From: a virus
Strand: one strand, 5' to 3'
Length of the DNA stretch: 24,662 nt
IMG/VR virus record: IMGVR_UViG_3300042899_000935
Location: 1-24,662 of that record
Shown: in pieces, positions 2,079 through 13,315 of the stretch
Numbering within the stretch: the stretch's first letter is position 1
Layout: each line of letters begins with the position of its first letter
The notes under the pieces: generated by a model
Databases searched by the model: none
Told to the model about the DNA's origin: nothing
Seen by the model: only the letters and a program-made list of their open reading frames with translations
Position numbers and translations under genes: made by a program

Positions 2079-3062
2079 TTACCAATCATAATCCTCATCC
2101 CACTCATTCCAACTTCTACTGTAATAATCATCTTTTTTACGGTCTGAATAAACATACTCACCACTATTAAAAATATCGTTCTCATCTTCATCATCTTCAA
2201 TCAAAAGTGTTTTTACTTCTTTTGTTTTAGTTTTAGAACTACCACTCCAATAAGTACTTAAATTATTGTAATTTTTATCTTCTTTTGGGTTTTCGTATTT
2301 GTTTTCACCCAATTCTTCAACAAGTTTTAAACCAAGTTCATAACCGTTTTGAACATCGTCAACAATAACATATTCATTATCTGTATGATAACGATAATAC
2401 CCAGCCGCCAAGTTTAAACAAGCAATATTAAATTTTTCCATGATTTGCCAAACATCGGTGTATGGATGGTATGCCCAATCAACAATACCATGTTCTTTAA
2501 TTAAACCTGTTACTTTATCCGCGAATTGTGATTTTTGGTTGAATAAATAACGACCCATTAATGTTAAACTCATTGATGCTCCACCTGGAGAATCATACTG
2601 AATTACATAACCAATATTCTCAAAAAACTTAGGGTCGGCATACATACTACCTTTACAACCAATTTCTTCTGAAACAAAAAATGCTGCTTTAACATTTGGT
2701 AATGTGTCTAACATTTCAAGAGCTAAATAAACACCACATTTATCATCACCACCAATACCTGAAGCTTTTTTGGTGACTTTGTCCATACCTGTAAGAATAA
2801 CACCATCTTCACCTTCTGTTTGAACAACAATCATATTCATATTAACAGGGTGAACCGTATCTGTATGTGCAACAAAACAAGGGAAGTTTTTACTAACACC
2901 TTTTGTAACATAAATATTACCGTGACTATCGGTATAGTGTTCATAACCTTTTTGGGTTAAAACTTTTTGTAAATACTCAATCATAAGTTTTTCGTTACGA
3001 GAGTGAGTCGGTACTGAAAGAACTTCAGTTAATCGAGTTAATTTATCTTGTGTCATTTTCAT
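2079..3062 (-). CDS. M20/peptidase T-like zinc metallopeptidase
   Basis: This 327-residue protein has the dizinc aminopeptidase signature set of the M20/M42/M28 clan, closest by eye to tripeptidase PepT: AHTDTVH (H66, D68), GIGGDDKCG (bridging Asp at 106/107), SEEIGCKG (E132 general base, E133 ligand), YDSPGG (D157) and YHTDNEYV (H226). These would let it cleave N-terminal residues from short peptides in the cytoplasm. At about 260 residues of catalytic core it is shorter than bacterial PepT (about 400), suggesting loss of the lid/dimerisation domain. The last ~65 residues are a Ser/Lys then Asp/Tyr-rich tail ending in WDEDYDW. It is transcribed against the tail genes, with a Bacteroidota-like -7 box just upstream. 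The start could be Met1 or Met3 (3056). A moron or host-derived gene is likely. Confidence 0.85.
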   Translation of the reverse strand: MKMTQDKLTRLTEVLSVPTHSRNEKLMIEYLQKVLTQKGYEHYTDSHGNIYVTKGVSKNFPCFVAHTDTVHPVNMNMIVVQTEGEDGVILTGMDKVTKKASGIGGDDKCGVYLALEMLDTLPNVKAAFFVSEEIGCKGSMYADPKFFENIGYVIQYDSPGGASMSLTLMGRYLFNQKSQFADKVTGLIKEHGIVDWAYHPYTDVWQIMEKFNIACLNLAAGYYRYHTDNEYVIVDDVQNGYELGLKLVEELGENKYENPKEDKNYNNLSTYWSGSSKTKTKEVKTLLIEDDEDENDIFNSGEYVYSDRKKDDYYSRSWNEWDEDYDW

Positions 3063-3207: not shown

Positions 3208-3978
3208 ATGTCAAAACAACAAACACAAGAAATTCAATTTCAAGCCCCATTCGATGTTATTCCTTTGCCATCTAGAGGTCTTTTATACCCTGGACAACAA
3301 GGTGCTGTAAAAGTGGAATATATGACCGCAATGGATGAAAATATTTTAACATCACCCAATTTAATTAAAAGTGGGAAAGTTCTTGATGTTTTATTGGAAA
3401 GAAAAGTTAAAGAATCCCCAGTACCTTTTGAAGAATTATTAGTTGGTGATAGAAACGCAATCATGATTTGGTTACGTGCTACAGGTTACGGTGAAATGTA
3501 TCCTGTTAAATTAACTGACCCGACAAGTGGTGTTGAATTTGAAACTGAAATAGATTTATCTACTTTAAAAACAAAAGAACTACCAGAAGGTGTCGAACCA
3601 GATGAAAAAGGAGAATTTTCTTTCTTATTACCAAAATGTAAAAAGAAAATTAAATTTAGACTTTTAACCGTTGGTGATGAAAAATCTATTGTTAGTAGGT
3701 CTGAAAAATATGAGAAAGCAACAAAATCTCAAATTTCAAACGCTTTAACTTATAGACTACAAGCTCAGATTAAAGAAGTTGATGGTAATAGAGATATTAA
3801 CTACATCCAACAATTTGTTAATGTGATGCCAGCTTTTGATTCCCTTAAATTCAGAGAATATTCTGACTCAATTGAACCAGGTATAGATATGTCGGCCGAA
3901 GTGGAGGGACCGACAGGTACATTTCAAGCTCCAGTTACCCTCGGACTCAACTTTTTTTGGCCTAACGTCAGATTATAA
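3208..3978 (+). CDS. 26: T4 gp26-like baseplate/tail assembly protein
   Basis: This 256-residue protein contains the stretch PLPSRGLLYP followed by VKVEYMTAMDENILTSP and IKSGKVLDVLL, characteristic of the T4 gp26-type baseplate family and its relatives found before tape measures in contractile-tail phages. Its role is in baseplate hub or tail assembly, probably as a chaperone-like factor. A lysine-rich sub-region with paired Cys/Lys (LPKCKKKIKFRLL, about 146-158) is notable. The 3' end contains a run of seven T's (3952-3958). From there the +1/-2 frame stays open through the small gene at 4007-4147, so a 312-residue extended product is possible, analogous to lambda G/GT chaperones. The 146 bases before it hold no gene, only AT-rich sequence with a TATAAT at 3137-3142 and no good -35. 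Confidence 0.82.
   Translation: MSKQQTQEIQFQAPFDVIPLPSRGLLYPGQQGAVKVEYMTAMDENILTSPNLIKSGKVLDVLLERKVKESPVPFEELLVGDRNAIMIWLRATGYGEMYPVKLTDPTSGVEFETEIDLSTLKTKELPEGVEPDEKGEFSFLLPKCKKKIKFRLLTVGDEKSIVSRSEKYEKATKSQISNALTYRLQAQIKEVDGNRDINYIQQFVNVMPAFDSLKFREYSDSIEPGIDMSAEVEGPTGTFQAPVTLGLNFFWPNVRL
3952..3958 (+). other. Candidate +1/-2 frameshift site (T7 run)
   Basis: Near the 3' end of the gp26-like gene the codons read AAC TTT TTT TGG, with seven consecutive T's. A phenylalanine tRNA on the second TTT can re-pair perfectly after a +1 or a -2 slip. The resulting frame has no stop from 3959 to 4144 and runs straight into the small gene at 4007. Polymerase slippage on the run would give the same fusion. 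Confidence 0.45.
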
Positions 3979-4006
3979 TTTAAGTATTAAAAGAGAAATC
4001 TACTAT

Positions 4007-4147
4007 ATGGTAAAACATATGAGATTTTCTTATGAATCAGTTCAAAATATGCCAGTATGGGAAAGACGTATTTATCTTGATTTATGGCAAAAAGAACTTG
4101 AAGACCAGAAAAAAGAATACGATAAAGCAAAATCAAAAAGAAGATAA
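4007..4147 (+). CDS. Small protein, possible C-terminal extension of the gp26-like chaperone
   Basis: This is a 46-codon frame beginning MVKHMRFSYESVQNMPVWER. The segment MPVWERRIYLDLWQKE is followed by a Lys/Glu-rich helix, so it is a small, helical, charged protein. A second Met at codon 5 (4019) is an alternative start, and only a weak AGAGAAA precedes the first. It lies between the gp26-like gene and the tape measure, where lambda-like phages encode the T part of the G/GT assembly chaperone. Its frame is open upstream back to 3887, including the T7 run, with no ATG before 4007. It may therefore be made both alone and as a fusion. It ends 3 bases before a terminator stem. The family is not identified by name. 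Confidence 0.68.
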   Translation: MVKHMRFSYESVQNMPVWERRIYLDLWQKELEDQKKEYDKAKSKRR

Positions 4148-4150
4148 TTA

Positions 4151-4178
4151 AATGGGGTTAATAGCCCCATTTTTTATT
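4151..4178 (+). terminator. Intrinsic terminator after the small gene
   Basis: AATGGGG (4151-4157) pairs with CCCCATT (4165-4171) around a 7-base loop and runs into TTTTATTTA. It closes the gp26-like/small-gene transcript. An ATG at 4152 lies inside the left arm and is not a credible start for the next gene. Confidence 0.82.
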
Positions 4179-4208: not shown

Positions 4209-5564
4209 ATGTCAGTAATTTTATTAAACAACAATAACTTTAAAAAACTTCTAAAAGAAGCTCCTATCTCTGGTGATAAAGCAGCTCAAGATATTGCTAA
4301 AGCTGAAGGTGGTATTGCTAAAGCAAAGGACAGGTTAGCTAGATTACAAATAACTGATATACCTGGATTGGATTCTATCAACACAATAGACCAATTAGCT
4401 ATAGAACCTTTTAAGTTTGATTTTTTACTACAAATCCCAGATAATCCTCAAGGACTTACTTTACCAGTACCACACCCATTTGAAACTTTGGCTCGTGTGG
4501 TTGAAAAAAACCCTTTGACTTTGGAGGTTAAGACTAATGAAGGTGTATTGTTTAAAATGATTTTTACAAAAGAGGAAGAATTAATTACACAACTACCAGG
4601 TACAAAAGAACCAATCATTGGTAAAAGTAATAAAGTTATGGCTTTAGTTTCTGAAGATGGTAAAGAAGAAGGTAAGTACTATTCAATACAATTCGATCAC
4701 GCTAAAGAACTTGTTGATGAAGCAAATAAAGAAAAAGAAAAAGGTGGGGTAGAAAGTGAAGAGGATAAAAAAAACAAAAGTGGAGAAACAAAAGGTGAGG
4801 AAACAGAAGGTGAGGGAACAGAAGGGGGTAAAAATAATAAAGAACAATTATTTAATGATTTAGCCGGATTTTTCAAATTTACATATAATAATAGAAGACT
4901 TGCTGCTCCAGAATTATTTCCAAAAGAAAAACGTAAAAATACGTTAGAGTCTTATATTAATCAAATAGCTAAAAAAGTTATTTTAATTAAAGAAGACGAT
5001 GAAGATGAGGGTGAGGGTGAGGAAGATAACTCAAAAGACCCAACTAAAATGACGGTTGAGAAAGATTACATTGGTCAAATTTATGTACAAACAATTGTTT
5101 TGGGTCCTAAGGCAAAAGCTAGAGCTGGTGAAGAAAAAAATAATTATGTGAATAAAGTAAATCAATCACAAAAGGGTCAAACAAAATGGGACGGTAATTT
5201 TAATAATTTACCAAAAGCAAAAGTAGGTCAAATCCCACCTACAGTAAATGTTGGTGGATTAAGTTTGGTTCTTGATGATAGCAATTTATCTCCTGAACAA
5301 GAAAGAATTTTTAAACAAATACAGGGTCTTTTAGGTAAAAGTAATTTTGAAGGTGAAACCACAATCAGAAGAAGTGCTAGAGATAAAGGCACTATTATAA
5401 TAGGGTTTCCAACACTTGGCGGTAAAAAAGCAATTGTTTGTAAATTATTAAATAAAGAAACAAATTTAATGAAAAATCTTAGTGTTGAAATTGCTCCAAA
5501 AATTACGGGAAATGATAAATTCACTGAATCAACAATAGCTAAAATACGAATTAAAAAACTTTAA
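4209..5564 (+). CDS. Unknown structural-type protein between assembly chaperone and tape measure
   Basis: This 451-residue protein is of unknown function. I chose ATG 4209 because the in-frame ATG at 4152 lies within a terminator hairpin and a TATAAATA box lies between the two. The N-terminus MSVILLNNNNFKKLLKEAP carries a KKLLKE-A segment like the KIL[KR]E peptides of the genes at 1129 and 1568. Residues about 20-190 and 320-451 look globular. Between them are two low-complexity acidic linkers (about 175-215, and about 262-280 with EDDEDEGEGEEDN). It ends 6 bases before the tape-measure gene, so it is probably in the same operon. Synteny suggests a tail or virion role. I found no catalytic motif. 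Confidence 0.75.
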   Translation: MSVILLNNNNFKKLLKEAPISGDKAAQDIAKAEGGIAKAKDRLARLQITDIPGLDSINTIDQLAIEPFKFDFLLQIPDNPQGLTLPVPHPFETLARVVEKNPLTLEVKTNEGVLFKMIFTKEEELITQLPGTKEPIIGKSNKVMALVSEDGKEEGKYYSIQFDHAKELVDEANKEKEKGGVESEEDKKNKSGETKGEETEGEGTEGGKNNKEQLFNDLAGFFKFTYNNRRLAAPELFPKEKRKNTLESYINQIAKKVILIKEDDEDEGEGEEDNSKDPTKMTVEKDYIGQIYVQTIVLGPKAKARAGEEKNNYVNKVNQSQKGQTKWDGNFNNLPKAKVGQIPPTVNVGGLSLVLDDSNLSPEQERIFKQIQGLLGKSNFEGETTIRRSARDKGTIIIGFPTLGGKKAIVCKLLNKETNLMKNLSVEIAPKITGNDKFTESTIAKIRIKKL

Positions 5565-5570
5565 TAATTA

Positions 5571-8246
5571 ATGGCAGACAATATTAAAAGGAATATAGAA
5601 GACGAAAAAGCGTTTTTACAGTTACAAGAACAAATTCGTGATGCTCAAAGAGATGCTGGTAAAAGTTTACAAAGTGCTGGTGAGTATACCAAAACCATTC
5701 TTTTAAATTATCGTGAAATGCAAAAAGTTTCTAGTAAAATTAGAGACTTAGAAAAAGAGGCTGATAAGTTAAGTAAATCTCGTAACAAAAGTGATCAAGA
5801 AAGAGCGGCAATTATACGTCAACAAGTAGAAGATCTTAAAAAACAAAAAGACGAAATAAAGTCTATCAATAAACAAATGGCTTCACTTGGTGGGGCTGTT
5901 AGAGCTGGTTTTAGTGGTCTTGTAAGTTACTTAGGTCAGGCTTTAACAGGTTATTTAGAATTTAGTCAAAAAACAAGAGACGTTGCTGCACAAATAGGTC
6001 TAGGTTCTAACAACATGAATATGTTACAGAGTAACATTCAACAAGCTGCTGTACAAATGGCAGGTTATGGTGTTAGTGTAACCGATGCTCTTGAGGCACA
6101 ACAAGCGTATTCCGATGAGTTAGGTCGTTCAGTTATTTTAACACAATCCGCATTAGAAAATATGTCCATGATTGGTAAAGCAACTGGTCTTGGTATGCAG
6201 GGTATGGCAGGTTTAACAGCTCAGATGAATCAATTTGGTCTTGGGGCTGAGGATTCAGCTAAAATGATATATTCTATGTATTCGGATTCAACAGCCATGG
6301 GATTAAATGCTGGTAAAGTAATTAAAAAATTTCAAGAAAATATCGGTCTGTTAAATAAATTAAATTTTAAAAACGGAATCAAAGGTCTACAAAAAATGGC
6401 TCAGTTAAGTGAGAAGTATAAAATAGACATGAATGGTATTGCGAATGCATCTGAAAAGGCTTTCTCACCTGAAGGTGCTATTGAAATGGCTGCTCAATTA
6501 CAAGTAATGGGTGGTGCAATGGCTAGTTTAGGAGACCCGTTTCAGTTAATGTATAAGGCTCGTAACAATCCTGAAAAATTTGCCGAAGATATGGCAAAAG
6601 CAGCCGCTGAATCAGCTACTTTTAATAGTCAAACAGGAGAGTTTCAAGTTAATGCTATGGAAATAGATAGATTACGTGTTGTTGCTGAAGCGACCGGACA
6701 ATCTATGGAAAACTTAGTTGAACAGGCAAAATCGACTGCTCAAGTTAACATGTTTAAAGGGTTATTGGGTGGTAAGGGTCTTTCACCTGAAGAACAAGAC
6801 GCTGTTGCCATGATGAGTCAAATGGTAGATGGTAAAGCACAAATTCAAATTGGTGTCGGTCCAGATGGTAAAGCCATGATGAAAGACTTGACTGCAGTCG
6901 GTAAAGATGATTTACAAAGAGTTTTAAATGATAAAAAAAGTGCTAAAGAAGCGGCATCACAGGCAACAGGTATCATGGAAAGAATCCAAAATGTTATGAA
7001 TCAATTAATGGTTGCGGTATATCCTTTATTTCAGGCTTTAGAACAAAACTTACAACCTTTAGTTGATATCTTAAAAGAAAAAACTACAGGTTGGGCCGAG
7101 TCACTAAAAAACTTTTTTACAAAAGTTGATATTTCAGGTTTTATAGACGGATTGAAAAACTTTTTTGTTGGATTAGGAGAAAAATTAAAATTTGTTGCTG
7201 AAAATTGGAAAACAGTGTTAGGTGTGGCGGCGATTGCTTTCGCAACATATTGGGTTAGTAAACAAGTGATAGCTGGTTTAGCGTTTGGTTTAGCCGCTGG
7301 TAAAGGTATTTTGATTAGTGCTGGAGGTAAACTTAAAAGTTTATTTGGTTCTTTAACTTCAAAATTACCTGGGGGTGGTGGTGAAACACCGATGACTGGT
7401 GCTCAAATGGCAATGCAAGGTCAGGCATCTAAAGCAGCAGGAATGGGTAGTATGATGAAATCTCTAGGTTCAGCTGCACAAATTTTAGCGGTAGGGGCTG
7501 CATTAATGATGGTTGCAAAGGCTTTGGATATTTTTGGGGATGCTATGTTAAAATTACAAAAAGTACCGACAAATTTATTAATTGGTGTTGGTACAGGGTT
7601 ATTAGTTTTTGTAGGGGCTATGGGATTGTTAGGAGCTAGTGGTATTGGTGAAATAGGGGTGGCAATAATGTTAGGTGTCGGTGCTGCTTTATTAATGATA
7701 GGGGGAGCGGTATGGATTGTCGCCCAAGGTATGTCGACTTTAGTAGATTCTTTTACCAATTTATTTACAATACTACCAAACGCGGGTTCACAATTATTAG
7801 ATGCTGGTTTAGGTTTCTTGGCTATGGCCGCTGGAATAGGTGTTTTAACATTGTCATTAATTGCTATGGGAGCGGCAGCTATTTTTGCATTACCTGGATT
7901 ATTAATATTGGGTGGAGTTACTTCAATGTTAACAGAAACTGCAACAGCGTTGGCGGCAAGTGGTGGTGGAGAAGGTATAGAAAAGGCTGTAAACGCAATC
8001 AATTCTGTAGACCAAAATAAATTAGATGCTTTAAAAGATTTATCCATGTGGTTTTCTTTAATAGGGGCATCACCAACAATTAAGTTTGAAGAAAATTTAA
8101 CAGTAGATGGTTCAATTGTTTTAAAAGGAGAGGCCGGAGGTAAATCAAATACAGACTGGGTTACAGACCCTATATTTGTTTCAAAATTAAAAGAATTTAT
8201 TGAATACTCGAAGGTAGCTGATAGAAACGGTGGAAAACCAAGATAA
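5571..8246 (+). CDS. Tail tape measure protein
   Basis: This 891-residue protein has the usual tape-measure layout. Residues 1-115 form a charged coiled coil. Residues 115-530 are a long Ala/Gln/Met-rich helical region. From about 545 to 790 there is a set of hydrophobic Gly/Ala/Leu/Ile/Met segments (for example GVAAIAFATYWV, ILAVGAALMMVAK, LGVGAALLMIGGAVWIVA), and a small polar C-terminal domain follows. Tape measures fill the tail tube, set its length and are ejected to help DNA cross the inner membrane. If mostly helical at about 1.5 angstroms per residue, this one would correspond to a tail of roughly 130 nm. Its place after the assembly-chaperone-like genes and before the baseplate genes supports the call. 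Confidence 0.86.
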   Translation: MADNIKRNIEDEKAFLQLQEQIRDAQRDAGKSLQSAGEYTKTILLNYREMQKVSSKIRDLEKEADKLSKSRNKSDQERAAIIRQQVEDLKKQKDEIKSINKQMASLGGAVRAGFSGLVSYLGQALTGYLEFSQKTRDVAAQIGLGSNNMNMLQSNIQQAAVQMAGYGVSVTDALEAQQAYSDELGRSVILTQSALENMSMIGKATGLGMQGMAGLTAQMNQFGLGAEDSAKMIYSMYSDSTAMGLNAGKVIKKFQENIGLLNKLNFKNGIKGLQKMAQLSEKYKIDMNGIANASEKAFSPEGAIEMAAQLQVMGGAMASLGDPFQLMYKARNNPEKFAEDMAKAAAESATFNSQTGEFQVNAMEIDRLRVVAEATGQSMENLVEQAKSTAQVNMFKGLLGGKGLSPEEQDAVAMMSQMVDGKAQIQIGVGPDGKAMMKDLTAVGKDDLQRVLNDKKSAKEAASQATGIMERIQNVMNQLMVAVYPLFQALEQNLQPLVDILKEKTTGWAESLKNFFTKVDISGFIDGLKNFFVGLGEKLKFVAENWKTVLGVAAIAFATYWVSKQVIAGLAFGLAAGKGILISAGGKLKSLFGSLTSKLPGGGGETPMTGAQMAMQGQASKAAGMGSMMKSLGSAAQILAVGAALMMVAKALDIFGDAMLKLQKVPTNLLIGVGTGLLVFVGAMGLLGASGIGEIGVAIMLGVGAALLMIGGAVWIVAQGMSTLVDSFTNLFTILPNAGSQLLDAGLGFLAMAAGIGVLTLSLIAMGAAAIFALPGLLILGGVTSMLTETATALAASGGGEGIEKAVNAINSVDQNKLDALKDLSMWFSLIGASPTIKFEENLTVDGSIVLKGEAGGKSNTDWVTDPIFVSKLKEFIEYSKVADRNGGKPR

Positions 8247-8368: not shown

Positions 8369-11300
8369 ATGCCTAACAGTCCACAAATAAATCCTTTTGA
8401 TTACAATATAGATAAGTTTGATAGTGGTATTTTAGGACCAATAACCGATACCGATTTTAGAACTTATCTTTTTACACATAATTTAGGAACACCAAATCCG
8501 GTTATTAGTAGTGTTTTAAGTAATCCTTGGGCTGATAGAGGGACAGAGTATGATGTTAGTCAAAGTACTTTTAACGTTATAGATGTACCTAATTTAACTA
8601 CAGTTGCTAATACACCTTCTTTATACAATAATTTAACAAACCCAAGACAAATTAATCTTGGTAGTAACTTACAAGATATAAATCCGCAGATAGCTAACGT
8701 TTTAGGTCAAGATAAACCTGAAGAGGCTGGTTTAGGATTAGACGTAACTTTTAACCCAAATATTTCAAATATAGATTTACCTTCAGTCCAAGAGGTTTCT
8801 GAAACACCTTCTTTATACAATAATTTAACAAACCCAAGACAAATAAATGTTGGTAGTAATTTACAAGATATAAATCCACAAGTTGCCAATGTTTTAGGGC
8901 AAACTACACCACAACAAGCGGGTTTAGGTCAAGACGCTACTTCTTTGTTCAACTCAAATGTTGCTAATCTTGATTTACCTTCTGTACAGGAGGCATCAGA
9001 GATATCTAGTACGATAAACAATTTTACACAACCTAGACCAGATAATCTAGCTTTAAACCCTACAGAAGAAGACTTGTTAAGTTGGTATCCAGTTGAATTT
9101 GCGGCAGTTTACCAACAATGGTCAGGAGATTATAATACACCATATGGGGTCCCACAAACTTTAAGATTAAGTTTTGCTGGTAATATTAACTCTTGGGTTA
9201 AACCTGGTGGACAAGTTATAACAACTAGAGAAATTAGAGATAGGGACTTATTAACAAAAGCAAATAACAAATACGGACCAACACAAATAATTTCTTACGG
9301 AACTACAGGTGATGAGTTATTAAATAATCGTACAGGTTTTGTATCTTATAACCCAGGTATTCAAGGAGATTTTAGAGACCAACTATTTAGTAGAACTTTA
9401 GGTGTTGGTGTAATTCCTTTTAGTACTATAGGTTCAGGTATAAATTACAAACCCGATGGTACAAACATTTCGGAATTAGATACAATAGCTAGAAAAAGAA
9501 GAGGTGTAGAAGTTTTAAATAGAATTAAATTAAACTTTACTGATAATACAGTGGGATTGATTAATACAAGTCCAATTGGTTTATTAACAGGACAAGATTT
9601 AATTATTAAAAATTATTCTATTACTTCACGTAAAACAGCTATCGGTAAGGCAGCAGAATTTTTAGCTAAACTAACAGGATTTAATAACCCTAACTCTATA
9701 TTAAACTCAGGTGATTTTAATTTATCTGATTATAATAAACAAGTTCAAGTAGGTAGAGTACTAGATAAAAATCAAGTAAACTACAATGAAGTTGATATTA
9801 GTAGTAGTTTATTAGATAAAACTGGTAAAAATACCAGAAATTTAATAATAGATACTTTCAATATCAATAAATACGGACCTAATTTAGAAGGTAATTATGA
9901 AAAATATAATCAGGGTAATTACTTTTTTCCTTCAGATAAAAAGAAGGGTGGGCCAATACCACAAGAAGAATACAAGACAGGTCAGGCTGCAGAAGGTTTT
10001 TTTGGTAAAACAGAAATAGTAAATGACGCCAAATCACAATCAGATATTTTGGGGTTCCAAGAACTTACAGATACACTTCAGTTTAATACCGGTTATGACA
10101 CTAGATATATAGGTACCACTACTGAAGCTAACTCTGATGCTAATGCCTTACCTACAACTGAACAGTATTCTTGGCAAAAAAGAGAAACAAATCCTTTTAA
10201 AAGAGGTTTATTAAAATACACACAGGAAATTATAAATAATTCTGAAAATTTAAATGATGTTGGAAGTTATATAGGATATTTTGATTCACCTAAAGCCTTT
10301 AATGGTAATGCTGATTATTACCAAAAAAGTGATAAACACGGACATTCAACTGGACTTAAAGCGAGTAGTATTAACATTGGGGGTATTCCAGTAGTGCTTC
10401 CTGCAGTCGGTCCACCAAAACTACCATCAAGAGGTAATACGGCAAAAAATTCTACAGGTGAGTTTTATTGTCGTTCTTGGTCGTCTAAAAGAAAGTACAC
10501 TTCTTTTGAAAACTTAATTAGGGGTGAAAAAAATTGGTGGTTAACAACTAAACCTGCTGATGTACTTGGTTCTGACGTACCTAGTAATTATAGTGATTTA
10601 ATGACATTGAACGAGGTAGGTATGCCAAAAATTGCTTGGGAAAAAGATGGTGTTAGAGAATTAAACATACAAGAAAATTATAATGTATTAGTAAAAAATA
10701 TTAAGGACTCACCTTCTCTTAAGGCTTTAGAAGGTTTAGCAACTTTTAAACCCAAAGTAATACCTTACATGTTTTCAATAGAAAATTTAGCTTGGGTAGA
10801 TGCTCCACAATCAGCTTACTTACCACTTTGTGAAAAAGGACCTAATGGTGGTAGAATTATGTGGTTCCCCCCTTACAATATGGATTTTAGTGAAAGTACC
10901 AGTGTTAATTGGGATTCAACAACTATGGTAGGAAGAGGAGAACCAATTTATACTTACAACAATACTGAAAGATCGGGTAGTTTAAGTTTTTCAATTGTAG
11001 TTGATCACCCTTCCGTATTAAATAAATTAAGAAAAGATTACGCTGAAAATATATTTGATGATGTGTATCATTCATTTTTCGCGGGTTGTGGGGGTACAGA
11101 CGCGTATAGAGATTTTATACCACCTGTAAGAAAAGATAGTACTATCGAAATACCTAACACTGGTGTTATAACACCAGAAGTGGTTAAACCTAAAGAACCT
11201 AACAACCCACCTTATACATCTTTTAAAGTTTATTTTGATAACGCATTTAATGACAGTAAATGTTCTAAAGATAAATTACCTTGTAAAGAGGCTCAATATA

Positions 11301-13315
11301 TAAACACTACAGGTCAAGGTAGAGCATTAAGTTTTACTTATGAAGAAAATGATTTAGTTTGTAATGGAAATTCTAGACCTGGATTAAATAAACTTGTAGA
11401 AAATAAATTAGCCGAAACATGTCAATTTTTAGTTGGTAAAAGTGGATTGTTAATAAACGCTCAATCACCCAACCAACCCACATTTAATCAAAAATATGAA
11501 GGACAAGAAGATGGAAAAAATTATACGATACAGTTATACGGTTATTGTTCTGGGGCTGCTAATAAGGATTATAATCTTAAATTAAGTCATGATAGAATAC
11601 TGTCTGTTTATAATTGGATGATACAGTACTTAGAATCTATTGAGAATGGTGACCCTGTTAAATTTGGTGGTAGTGATAAAACTTACCCTACTGAAACACA
11701 ATTAAGGGGTGGTTTTGACGATTTTATTAATTCAGGTCAAAAAGGTTTAAGGTGGGAGTTTTATAGTTTAGGCGATAGTGCATCAGACCCAAACTCAACT
11801 AACGAAGAGTGGGCTAAAGAAGATACAACAGGACAAGACCCTTGTACATCAAATCAAAATAGTCCTGATAGTTATGCATCTAAACAAGCTAGATATGTGG
11901 AAGTTAGATTAATAAAAAACCCTTTAAATTCTACTAGAATATCTGAACAAATTAATAACGAAAATCAAATTGTTGCTCAAGAAAAAACTAAAGAAGAACA
12001 GGCTAAAAAAGACGCTGCACAAAGTATAGCTGATAGTGTTGCTAAATCTTATATTGGGGAGTGTGATTATTTTCAGGCACTTAAAAAATCAGATAGTTTT
12101 ATTTATAATACTTTAGGTGAAAAATTAGATAATTTTCACCCCGCTTTTCACGCTATAACCCCAGAAGGTTTTAATTCTAGATTAACTTTCTTACAACAAT
12201 GTACAAGACAAGGACCACAATTAATAGATATTGATAGTCCACAAAATATGATTTTTGGTAGACCACCTATTTGTGTATTAAAGATAGGCGATTTTTATCA
12301 CACAAAAATTGTCGTAGACAGTATTAATTTTAGTTTTGAACCAGTACAGTGGGATTTAAACCCTGAAGGTATTGGTGTACAACCTATGGTCGTTAAAGTA
12401 GATATGGGTTTTAAATTTATTGGTGGAAGTTCATTAGGTGGACCTATCAAACAATTACAAAATGCAGTTTCATTTAACTTTTTTGCTAACACCGGAATTT
12501 ACAATACGGCTAGAGCTGTTGATAATTATTTAGCACAAAGAGAAGGAGCGTTACAGAAAAAAGTGGTATATGGTGGTTATATTACACCAGGTCAAGAAAA
12601 TGCTTTATATGATGTGATAAAACAAAGTAGTGTTATGACCGATAAGAAAATTGATACAGTTACACCACAACCTAAACCTGTAGATGTACCGTCTACAAAC
12701 GCACAAGCATCAACAGCAGTTGTTTCAGCAACCACCGAAAATCAAAAAACAGATGTTAAAAAATCAGCTGTAACTAATAAACCGGCAACACCAACCGCAG
12801 TAGGTAACACACTAAAAGACGCTAGATTTGAACTTCTTAACTCATTAAATTCTCAAGAATGGGTTATAAGTAGTTACCAAGGTGAAGGTATCGGTGAATT
12901 ACTTGGTGGAGCAAAAATACCTAACGGTCTTTTAAATATATCCGCCCCTAAAACTGTTTACAATAAAACCGCCAACCCAGATGATTTATTAGCCTCATTT
13001 GGATTTGTTATTAAAGATTATAAAGCGTTATCGGGACAAAGAGATTCACAAGGCTCTAGATTATTTGTGCAGTTTAGAGAAAATGGTGTTGTTAATTTTA
13101 TAAAAACCTTTGGATTTCCTAACCCAGGTGTTAACGTTTTAAAGGCACAAATAATAAAAACAGGTAAATATTATAACTTTAATACCTTTAAACCTATTCC
13201 GGCTAATCTTGGAGAAGGATCTGAAAAAATAGATTTAACTATAGAAATAAATGGAATTAAAAGTTCTGGACAATTTTTAAGTGTTTTATTAAAGCAAATT
13301 ACAACAAATATGTAA
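8369..13315 (+). CDS. Giant baseplate/tube-initiator-type protein with OmpA-like domain
   Basis: The protein is 1648 residues long. Residues 82-211 are two ~65-residue repeats (TPSLYNNLTNPRQIN start) with a degenerate third. About 840-885 contains VGRGEPIYTYNNTERSG then SFSIVVDHPS, a pattern I associate with baseplate hub/tube-proximal proteins of contractile tails. About 1010-1205 resembles an OmpA/MotB peptidoglycan-binding domain: IQLYGYCSG, then N1069-LKLSHDRILSVYNWM (compare NxxLSxxRAxxVxxYL), then SKQARYVEVRLI. About 1255-1385 carries TPEGFNSRLTFLQQCTRQGP and IGDFYHTKIVV, with NPEGIGVQPM after it, likely a tube-initiator-like domain (T4 gp48/gp54 role). The C-terminal ~250 residues are unassigned. 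It is 3 bases from the gp53-like gene. The role is structural at the centre of the baseplate, possibly gripping the cell wall. The exact T4 equivalent is uncertain. Confidence 0.75.
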   Translation: MPNSPQINPFDYNIDKFDSGILGPITDTDFRTYLFTHNLGTPNPVISSVLSNPWADRGTEYDVSQSTFNVIDVPNLTTVANTPSLYNNLTNPRQINLGSNLQDINPQIANVLGQDKPEEAGLGLDVTFNPNISNIDLPSVQEVSETPSLYNNLTNPRQINVGSNLQDINPQVANVLGQTTPQQAGLGQDATSLFNSNVANLDLPSVQEASEISSTINNFTQPRPDNLALNPTEEDLLSWYPVEFAAVYQQWSGDYNTPYGVPQTLRLSFAGNINSWVKPGGQVITTREIRDRDLLTKANNKYGPTQIISYGTTGDELLNNRTGFVSYNPGIQGDFRDQLFSRTLGVGVIPFSTIGSGINYKPDGTNISELDTIARKRRGVEVLNRIKLNFTDNTVGLINTSPIGLLTGQDLIIKNYSITSRKTAIGKAAEFLAKLTGFNNPNSILNSGDFNLSDYNKQVQVGRVLDKNQVNYNEVDISSSLLDKTGKNTRNLIIDTFNINKYGPNLEGNYEKYNQGNYFFPSDKKKGGPIPQEEYKTGQAAEGFFGKTEIVNDAKSQSDILGFQELTDTLQFNTGYDTRYIGTTTEANSDANALPTTEQYSWQKRETNPFKRGLLKYTQEIINNSENLNDVGSYIGYFDSPKAFNGNADYYQKSDKHGHSTGLKASSINIGGIPVVLPAVGPPKLPSRGNTAKNSTGEFYCRSWSSKRKYTSFENLIRGEKNWWLTTKPADVLGSDVPSNYSDLMTLNEVGMPKIAWEKDGVRELNIQENYNVLVKNIKDSPSLKALEGLATFKPKVIPYMFSIENLAWVDAPQSAYLPLCEKGPNGGRIMWFPPYNMDFSESTSVNWDSTTMVGRGEPIYTYNNTERSGSLSFSIVVDHPSVLNKLRKDYAENIFDDVYHSFFAGCGGTDAYRDFIPPVRKDSTIEIPNTGVITPEVVKPKEPNNPPYTSFKVYFDNAFNDSKCSKDKLPCKEAQYINTTGQGRALSFTYEENDLVCNGNSRPGLNKLVENKLAETCQFLVGKSGLLINAQSPNQPTFNQKYEGQEDGKNYTIQLYGYCSGAANKDYNLKLSHDRILSVYNWMIQYLESIENGDPVKFGGSDKTYPTETQLRGGFDDFINSGQKGLRWEFYSLGDSASDPNSTNEEWAKEDTTGQDPCTSNQNSPDSYASKQARYVEVRLIKNPLNSTRISEQINNENQIVAQEKTKEEQAKKDAAQSIADSVAKSYIGECDYFQALKKSDSFIYNTLGEKLDNFHPAFHAITPEGFNSRLTFLQQCTRQGPQLIDIDSPQNMIFGRPPICVLKIGDFYHTKIVVDSINFSFEPVQWDLNPEGIGVQPMVVKVDMGFKFIGGSSLGGPIKQLQNAVSFNFFANTGIYNTARAVDNYLAQREGALQKKVVYGGYITPGQENALYDVIKQSSVMTDKKIDTVTPQPKPVDVPSTNAQASTAVVSATTENQKTDVKKSAVTNKPATPTAVGNTLKDARFELLNSLNSQEWVISSYQGEGIGELLGGAKIPNGLLNISAPKTVYNKTANPDDLLASFGFVIKDYKALSGQRDSQGSRLFVQFRENGVVNFIKTFGFPNPGVNVLKAQIIKTGKYYNFNTFKPIPANLGEGSEKIDLTIEINGIKSSGQFLSVLLKQITTNM
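8612..9001 (+). repeat. Two in-frame ~192/198-bp coding repeats
   Basis: Unit 1 (8612-8803, 64 codons) and unit 2 (8804-9001, 66 codons) both start TPSLYNNLTNPRQIN and end LDLPSVQE(A/V)SE or IDLPSVQE. The first 41 bases of each unit are identical. A diverged third copy begins at 9002 (STINNFTQPRPDNLALNP). Confidence 0.88.

Follow-up and report, generated by a model that had tools for sequence, protein, structure and literature searches.

A conserved +1 frameshift site at the end of a gp26-like gene very probably yields a tail assembly chaperone in two lengths

G/GT-type frameshifting was long said to be conserved across long-tailed phages 'except T4' (PMC5009743). The tail assembly chaperones (TACs) of T4-like phages have been identified by Vladimirov, Gautam and Davidson (Virology 2022, 566:9-15, as cited in PMC10885494 and PMC12846349), and those of the T4 family are there described as being made by -1 shifts or from two genes (PMC10885494, PMC12846349). 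According to the authors of PRFect, no general motif is known for +1 frameshifting (PMC10885494). The locus described below lies in a stretch of viral DNA of 24,662 nucleotides from IMG/VR, which was analysed whole and is called the window. To judge from its sequence and from its relatives, the locus very probably encodes one tail assembly chaperone that is made in two lengths through a +1 programmed frameshift. The pair is best read as TAC-N and TAC-NC of the lambda G/GT type, belonging by homology to the T4-like TAC family, with a conserved frameshift site where TAC-N ends as the predicted source of the two lengths. A first-pass annotation of the window had offered a G/GT role for gp26 as a new reading; the comparative evidence supports the G/GT-type reading, and the chaperone role had already been published by Vladimirov, Gautam and Davidson in 2022, as cited above. 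Relative to that literature as cited, the new elements would be the +1 direction, the site rule, the lineage-wide extent and the switch between +1 and -1.

The gp26-like ORF of the window ends CTC GGA CTC AAC TTT TTT TGG CCT AAC GTC AGA TTA TAA, with seven T's at 3952-3958 falling in the 0-frame codons AAC TTT TTT TGG CCT (Table 1). From 3887 to 4144 the +1 frame contains no stop; it is closed at 4145-4147, has its first ATG at 4007, and adds 62 codons past the second Phe codon, so that the long product would have 250 + 62 = 312 residues; after a skip of one base, the frame translates as FF followed by GLTSDYNLSIKREIYYMVKHMRFSYESVQNMPVWERRIYLDLWQKELEDQKKEYDKAKSKRR. The junction coordinates, open frame and residue counts of the first-pass annotation are reproduced exactly when recomputed from the sequence. 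The -1 frame, on the other hand, reaches a stop within three codons of the window junction. The plus strand of the window holds six T7 runs; as such a run is not rare, it means little by itself, and the evidence lies in conservation. Directly 3' of the T domain, a sequence reading reveals a terminator-like hairpin, which overlaps the listed ATG (4152) of a 470-aa ORF; a later ATG near 4210 is the more likely start of that ORF.

Table 1. Coordinates of the features of the window discussed in the text
Feature	Position	Strand	Basis or remark
Peptidase-like gene	2079..3062	-	weak M42/M20 match; opposite to the tail genes
gp26-like gene, short chaperone form (TAC-N / G), 256 aa	3208..3978	+	PF12322, PHROG 150, AlphaFold model
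GGA CTC AAC TTT TTT, lowest synonymous change in the gene	3943..3957	+	possible 5' stimulator
+1 slip site TTTTTTTGGC	3952..3961	+	UUU or CUU before a codon beginning with a pyrimidine (U or C) in 169 of 173 distinct +1 junctions, among the matches listed
C-terminal (T / TAC-C) domain, 62 codons, +1 frame	3959..4147	+	PHROG 634 (gp51), hhalign to cyanophage gp51
ATG of the '46-codon gene' of the first-pass annotation	4007..4009	+	within the conserved domain; not conserved as a start
Terminator-like hairpin ATGGGG..CCCCAT, then TTTTTT	4152..4175	+	sequence reading
891-aa gene in tape measure position	5571..8246	+	candidate by position and length only
1648-aa protein, tail region	8369..13315		match to an OmpA-like domain (E=1.5e-5, slightly short of the curated cut-off)

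Both parts of the predicted long form can be assigned to known phage families. The gp26-like protein matches PF12322 T4_baseplate above the curated cut-off (E=1.3e-9) as well as PHROG 150 (E=4.6e-11), and the extension matches PHROG 634, 'baseplate hub assembly catalyst' (gp51; E=1.7e-7), and, by hhalign, the cyanophage gp51 profile (E=5.9e-10). T4 gp26 (208 aa) and T4 gp51 (249 aa) both match PF12322, and residues 147-246 of T4 gp51 match PHROG 634. As a single sequence, T4 gp51 gave no significant hhalign match to the T-domain profile, and the T4 link of the T domain is that provided by the PHROG and Pfam profiles. Judged by these matches, the upstream part is a member of the T4 gp26/gp51 family and the extension is homologous to the gp51 C-terminus. 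An AlphaFold model of the 256-aa form (pLDDT 92) strongly matches viral gp26-type models. In contrast to these, the match of the model to the HK97 tail assembly chaperone 2OB9 is weak (rank 5, E 1.6, probability 0.47; TM 0.49 by target), and the predicted likeness of fold is only suggestive; a sequence search of solved structures returned no significant match.

The +1 frame is conserved well beyond the window. In a close set of 55 IMG/VR loci encoding gp26 relatives, with identity down to 47%, the +1 frame is open and encodes the same domain in each locus complete to the end of the gene, as it does in Flavobacterium phage immuto and Microcystis phage Mel-JY01; among unique close relatives, the frame is open in 41 of 41. 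Between the 0-frame stop and the ATG of the window, the 370 codons of the +1 frame contain no stop, whereas the other two frames contain 29 and 27, and the synonymous share of codon differences is 30%, against 7% and 11%; the stop and substitution counts are uncorrected for relatedness, and the wider set spans deep branches. By these patterns, the +1 frame before the first ATG of the window is evolving as protein. Moreover, of the 251 five-codon windows along gp26, the one made up of the last five codons ranks first for scarcity of synonymous change. The homologue alignment proposed in the first-pass annotation has thus found the slip site and the open downstream frame both conserved; at the junction, no homologue's downstream frame is interrupted by a stop, and no conserved start was seen. 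A conserved site, a conserved +1 coding frame and gp26/gp51 homology of both parts can be read from the aligned sequences.

It is very unlikely that the T domain forms a gene of its own, with ribosomes reinitiating at the ATG (4007) once they have terminated gp26. Such a gene would agree with the ATG found at extension codon 16 or 20 in the window and most close relatives, and with the annotation of cyanophage gp51 as a separate gene whose ATG adjoins the gp26 stop. However, extension codons 6-15, which lie upstream of the ATG, evolve as protein in +1, and the codon-16 ATG has been lost in L017, L027, L029 and L032-L054; the first starts of L017, L029 and L032-L054 fall mostly at codons 27-30 or beyond, barring lone GTG/TTG codons, and several lineages are free of any start upstream of extension codon 27. 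In cultured immuto, no start occurs before extension codon 44, which lies beyond the conserved MP..ER-type motif, and the domain therefore cannot arise there by separate initiation. In many lineages, then, the aligned sequences offer the T domain no usable start. The 46-codon gene of the first-pass annotation, whose ATG is not conserved, is best regarded as the 3' part of the 62-codon extension.

Searching with a gp26 profile yielded at least 598 IMG/VR relatives plus 10 on MAG contigs, several of the latter assigned to Flavobacteriales, and an extra scan seeded with the outlier L157 added 80 more loci. When the junctions of cultured phages, MAGs and IMG/VR were pooled and reduced to one per distinct T-domain end, 186 remained, of which, among the matches listed, 173 are +1, 13 are -1 and none is in frame. 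A tally of site types, made on 123 junctions from before the L157-seeded scan, is dominated, among the matches listed, by TTT TTT TGG (82), followed by TTT TTT CGN (19), TTT TTT TAC (9) and TTT CTT TGG (6). The rule that describes most +1 sites is a P-site UUU or CUU followed by a U- or C-initial codon (UGG, CGN or UAC). Among the matches listed, 120 of the 123 tallied junctions have UUY as the P-site codon after the shift, so that Phe tRNA could re-pair fully after a +1 shift in nearly all of them. L053, L059, L061 and L123 fall outside the UUY rule. The L053 junction (about 4715-4725 of that locus), TTT TTA TGG, is a heptamer of the -1 type, yet the domain lies in +1, and the site fits either site rule poorly. 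The +1 arrangement extends to Firmicutes phages, namely Streptococcus phage vB_SagM-GXN1 (L060, TTC TTT CGT), Listeria phage LIS04 (L061, TTT TTT AGT) and Bacillus phage SP-15 (L062, TTT TTT CAC), and the records of these three phages carry no fusion annotation. Since the skip point is kept in about 170 distinct relatives, a real conserved switch is very likely, not a chance overlap.

The variant sites also bear on how the frame would be changed. A -2 slip as in Mu, with one extra Phe, is permitted by re-pairing on UUUUUUU, and the frame by itself cannot separate it from +1. In prfB, CUU slips to UUU. CUU replaces UUU at the slip codon with three independent origins on the gp26 tree, each still +1, and the TTC TTT TGG and TTC TTT CGC variants also keep the +1 frame. 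At TTT CTT TGG and TTC TTT sites, -2 re-pairing would be non-cognate, which argues against -2, whereas +1 re-pairing would be cognate or prfB-like; a -2 slip is very unlikely. The same variants speak against slippage of RNA polymerase on T7, in which mRNAs one base longer or shorter would be translated normally. T runs can cause transcriptional slippage and the window has seven T's, but TTT CTT TGG (three origins), TTC TTT TGG and TTC TTT CGC are +1 with runs of three or four T's, and the lack of a long homopolymer in them makes such slippage hardly credible. A sequencing or assembly indel that splits what is really one ORF has a negligible chance, for although homopolymers are error-prone on some platforms and the domain is fused in frame in T4 gp51 and two bacterial-genome loci (L164, L165), the same offset occurs in about 170 distinct sequences from many independent metagenomes, in the cultured GenBank phages immuto, Mel-JY01, SP-15 and LIS04, and at sites without a T7 run. 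Overall, the frame, the substitutions and the conservation of the site argue strongly for a +1 slip joining gp26 to the downstream frame; of the '+1 or -2 slip' that the first-pass annotation had put forward, the +1 part is borne out and the -2 part is disfavoured by the TTT CTT TGG and TTC TTT variants.

From these comparisons we infer the ribosomal slip itself, its efficiency, the identity of the slipping codon and the chaperone function. In the +1 mechanism proposed, most ribosomes would read gp26 through to its own stop and produce the 256-aa short form (TAC-N). A fraction would stall while UUU occupies the P site and UGG the A site, whereupon the P-site UUU (3955-3957) would re-pair on UUU (3956-3958) and GGC would become the next codon; the skip of one base would fuse the 62-codon domain and generate the 312-aa long form. 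On the model of lambda G/GT, coating of the tape measure protein would fall to the short form and recruitment of tail tube subunits to the long form.

The sequences around the site differ between clades. The CGN clade, which has one origin on the gp26 tree, carries SD-like GGGGUNGAG immediately 5' of the site; GGG is found in 17 of its 20 sites, whereas at other places it makes up 22 of 194 Gly codons; an SD 4-mer occurs in 85% of sites against a background of 13%. At UGG-type sites, the type of the window's clade, no SD-like stimulator is enriched (4-mer cores in 19% against a background of 13%). Gly codons that end in a purine are nevertheless overrepresented at -5 of these sites (44 of 51 against a background of 39%), in counts uncorrected for relatedness, and the window has such a GGR codon at -5, within the segment of lowest synonymous change. 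No consistent downstream RNA structure was predicted in the +1 clade that includes the window, whereas folding predictions place a hairpin a few bases 3' of most -1 sites in cyanophages.

Among the matches listed, every -1 junction (13 of 13) carries a canonical XXXYYYZ heptamer, so that site type and frame change together: U_UUU_UUC occurs in five cyanophages, U_UUU_UUU in Cr30 and A_AAU_UUC in seven loci (L157, L170, L172, L174, L175, L177 and L178). The loci with A_AAU_UUC have kept the C-terminal domain, and their gp26 is otherwise of the +1 superfamily to which the window belongs. It appears from these sequences that one subclade of the superfamily has switched to -1 through an acquired A_AAU_UUC.

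Tail genes surround the pair in related loci. In immuto, an annotated tape measure follows the chaperone pair; in the window, the 470-aa gene lies between the pair and the tape measure candidate. Homologues of the 891-aa protein are found 3' of the pair in most loci (HMM matches in 95 loci). Pfam/PHROG-type profiles gave no family match for this candidate, and an HMM link to the annotated immuto tape measure was not obtained. Contractile-tail-like loci in bacterial genomes (L163, L166, L167 and L168) have a short gp26-like protein and then, in the -1 frame, DUF6760 (PF20546), for whose start codon hardly any space, or none, is left; L167 has a TGATG overlap, and GGGGGA lies near the junction in three of the four. 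In L164 and L165, the gp26-like and DUF6760 parts are fused in one ORF. It may be that contractile injection systems, too, employ a chaperone in a short and a long form.

On balance, it seems probable that a very large, mostly uncultured T4-like lineage of contractile-tailed phages makes its chaperone by a +1 shift with a simple site rule, and that one of its subclades has flipped to -1. The same orthologous junction would then be +1 in most relatives, -1 in others and two genes in T4. If unreported, such a flip amounts to a natural experiment in which the direction of a conserved recoding event has changed, and, as the slip site predicts the frame, the junctions form a ready data set from which the rules of +1 frameshifting could be studied by comparison. 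Annotations of hundreds of environmental genomes list gp26 as a baseplate protein and either miss its second half or call it hypothetical.

Compared with lambda G/GT, in which the shift is -1 at GGGAAAG, the likenesses of the window's pair found here do not include sequence homology. With prfB (RF2), the window's family shares a predicted +1 slip of the P-site tRNA onto UUU, including CUU_U sites, and, in the CGN clade only, SD-like GGGGUNGAG just 5' of the site. In contrast to prfB, the A-site codon is UGG, CGN or UAC instead of a stop codon, and the window's own clade is without the SD-like element that prfB has 3 nt upstream; as its A-site codon is UGG and SD enrichment is absent from the UGG clade, the window was not assigned to the prfB type. 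The influenza PA-X site UCC_UUU_CGU shares its P-site codon, and in part its A-site codon, with UUU_UUU_CGU/C of the CGN clade, although the gene is unrelated and the ribosome eukaryotic. A canonical -1 frameshift was likewise rejected for the window, where the -1 frame is closed and downstream structure is lacking. Cyanophages S-PM2, P-SSM2, P-HM1, S-CAM4 and S-BM3 and Caulobacter phage Cr30 have a homologous pair with its junction at FF and the C-terminal domain out of frame; they differ in that the frame is -1, at U_UUU_UUC (U_UUU_UUU in Cr30), with a downstream hairpin predicted in most, and in that the pairs, where annotated, are two genes. T4 gp26 and gp51 belong to the same families (PF12322, PHROG 150 and PHROG 634), gp26 corresponding to the short form and gp51 to the same family plus a C-terminal domain. 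From these profile matches, and in agreement with Vladimirov, Gautam and Davidson (2022) as cited above, T4 holds the short and the short-plus-extension forms as two separate genes, whereas the window would produce both from one gene and a +1 shift.
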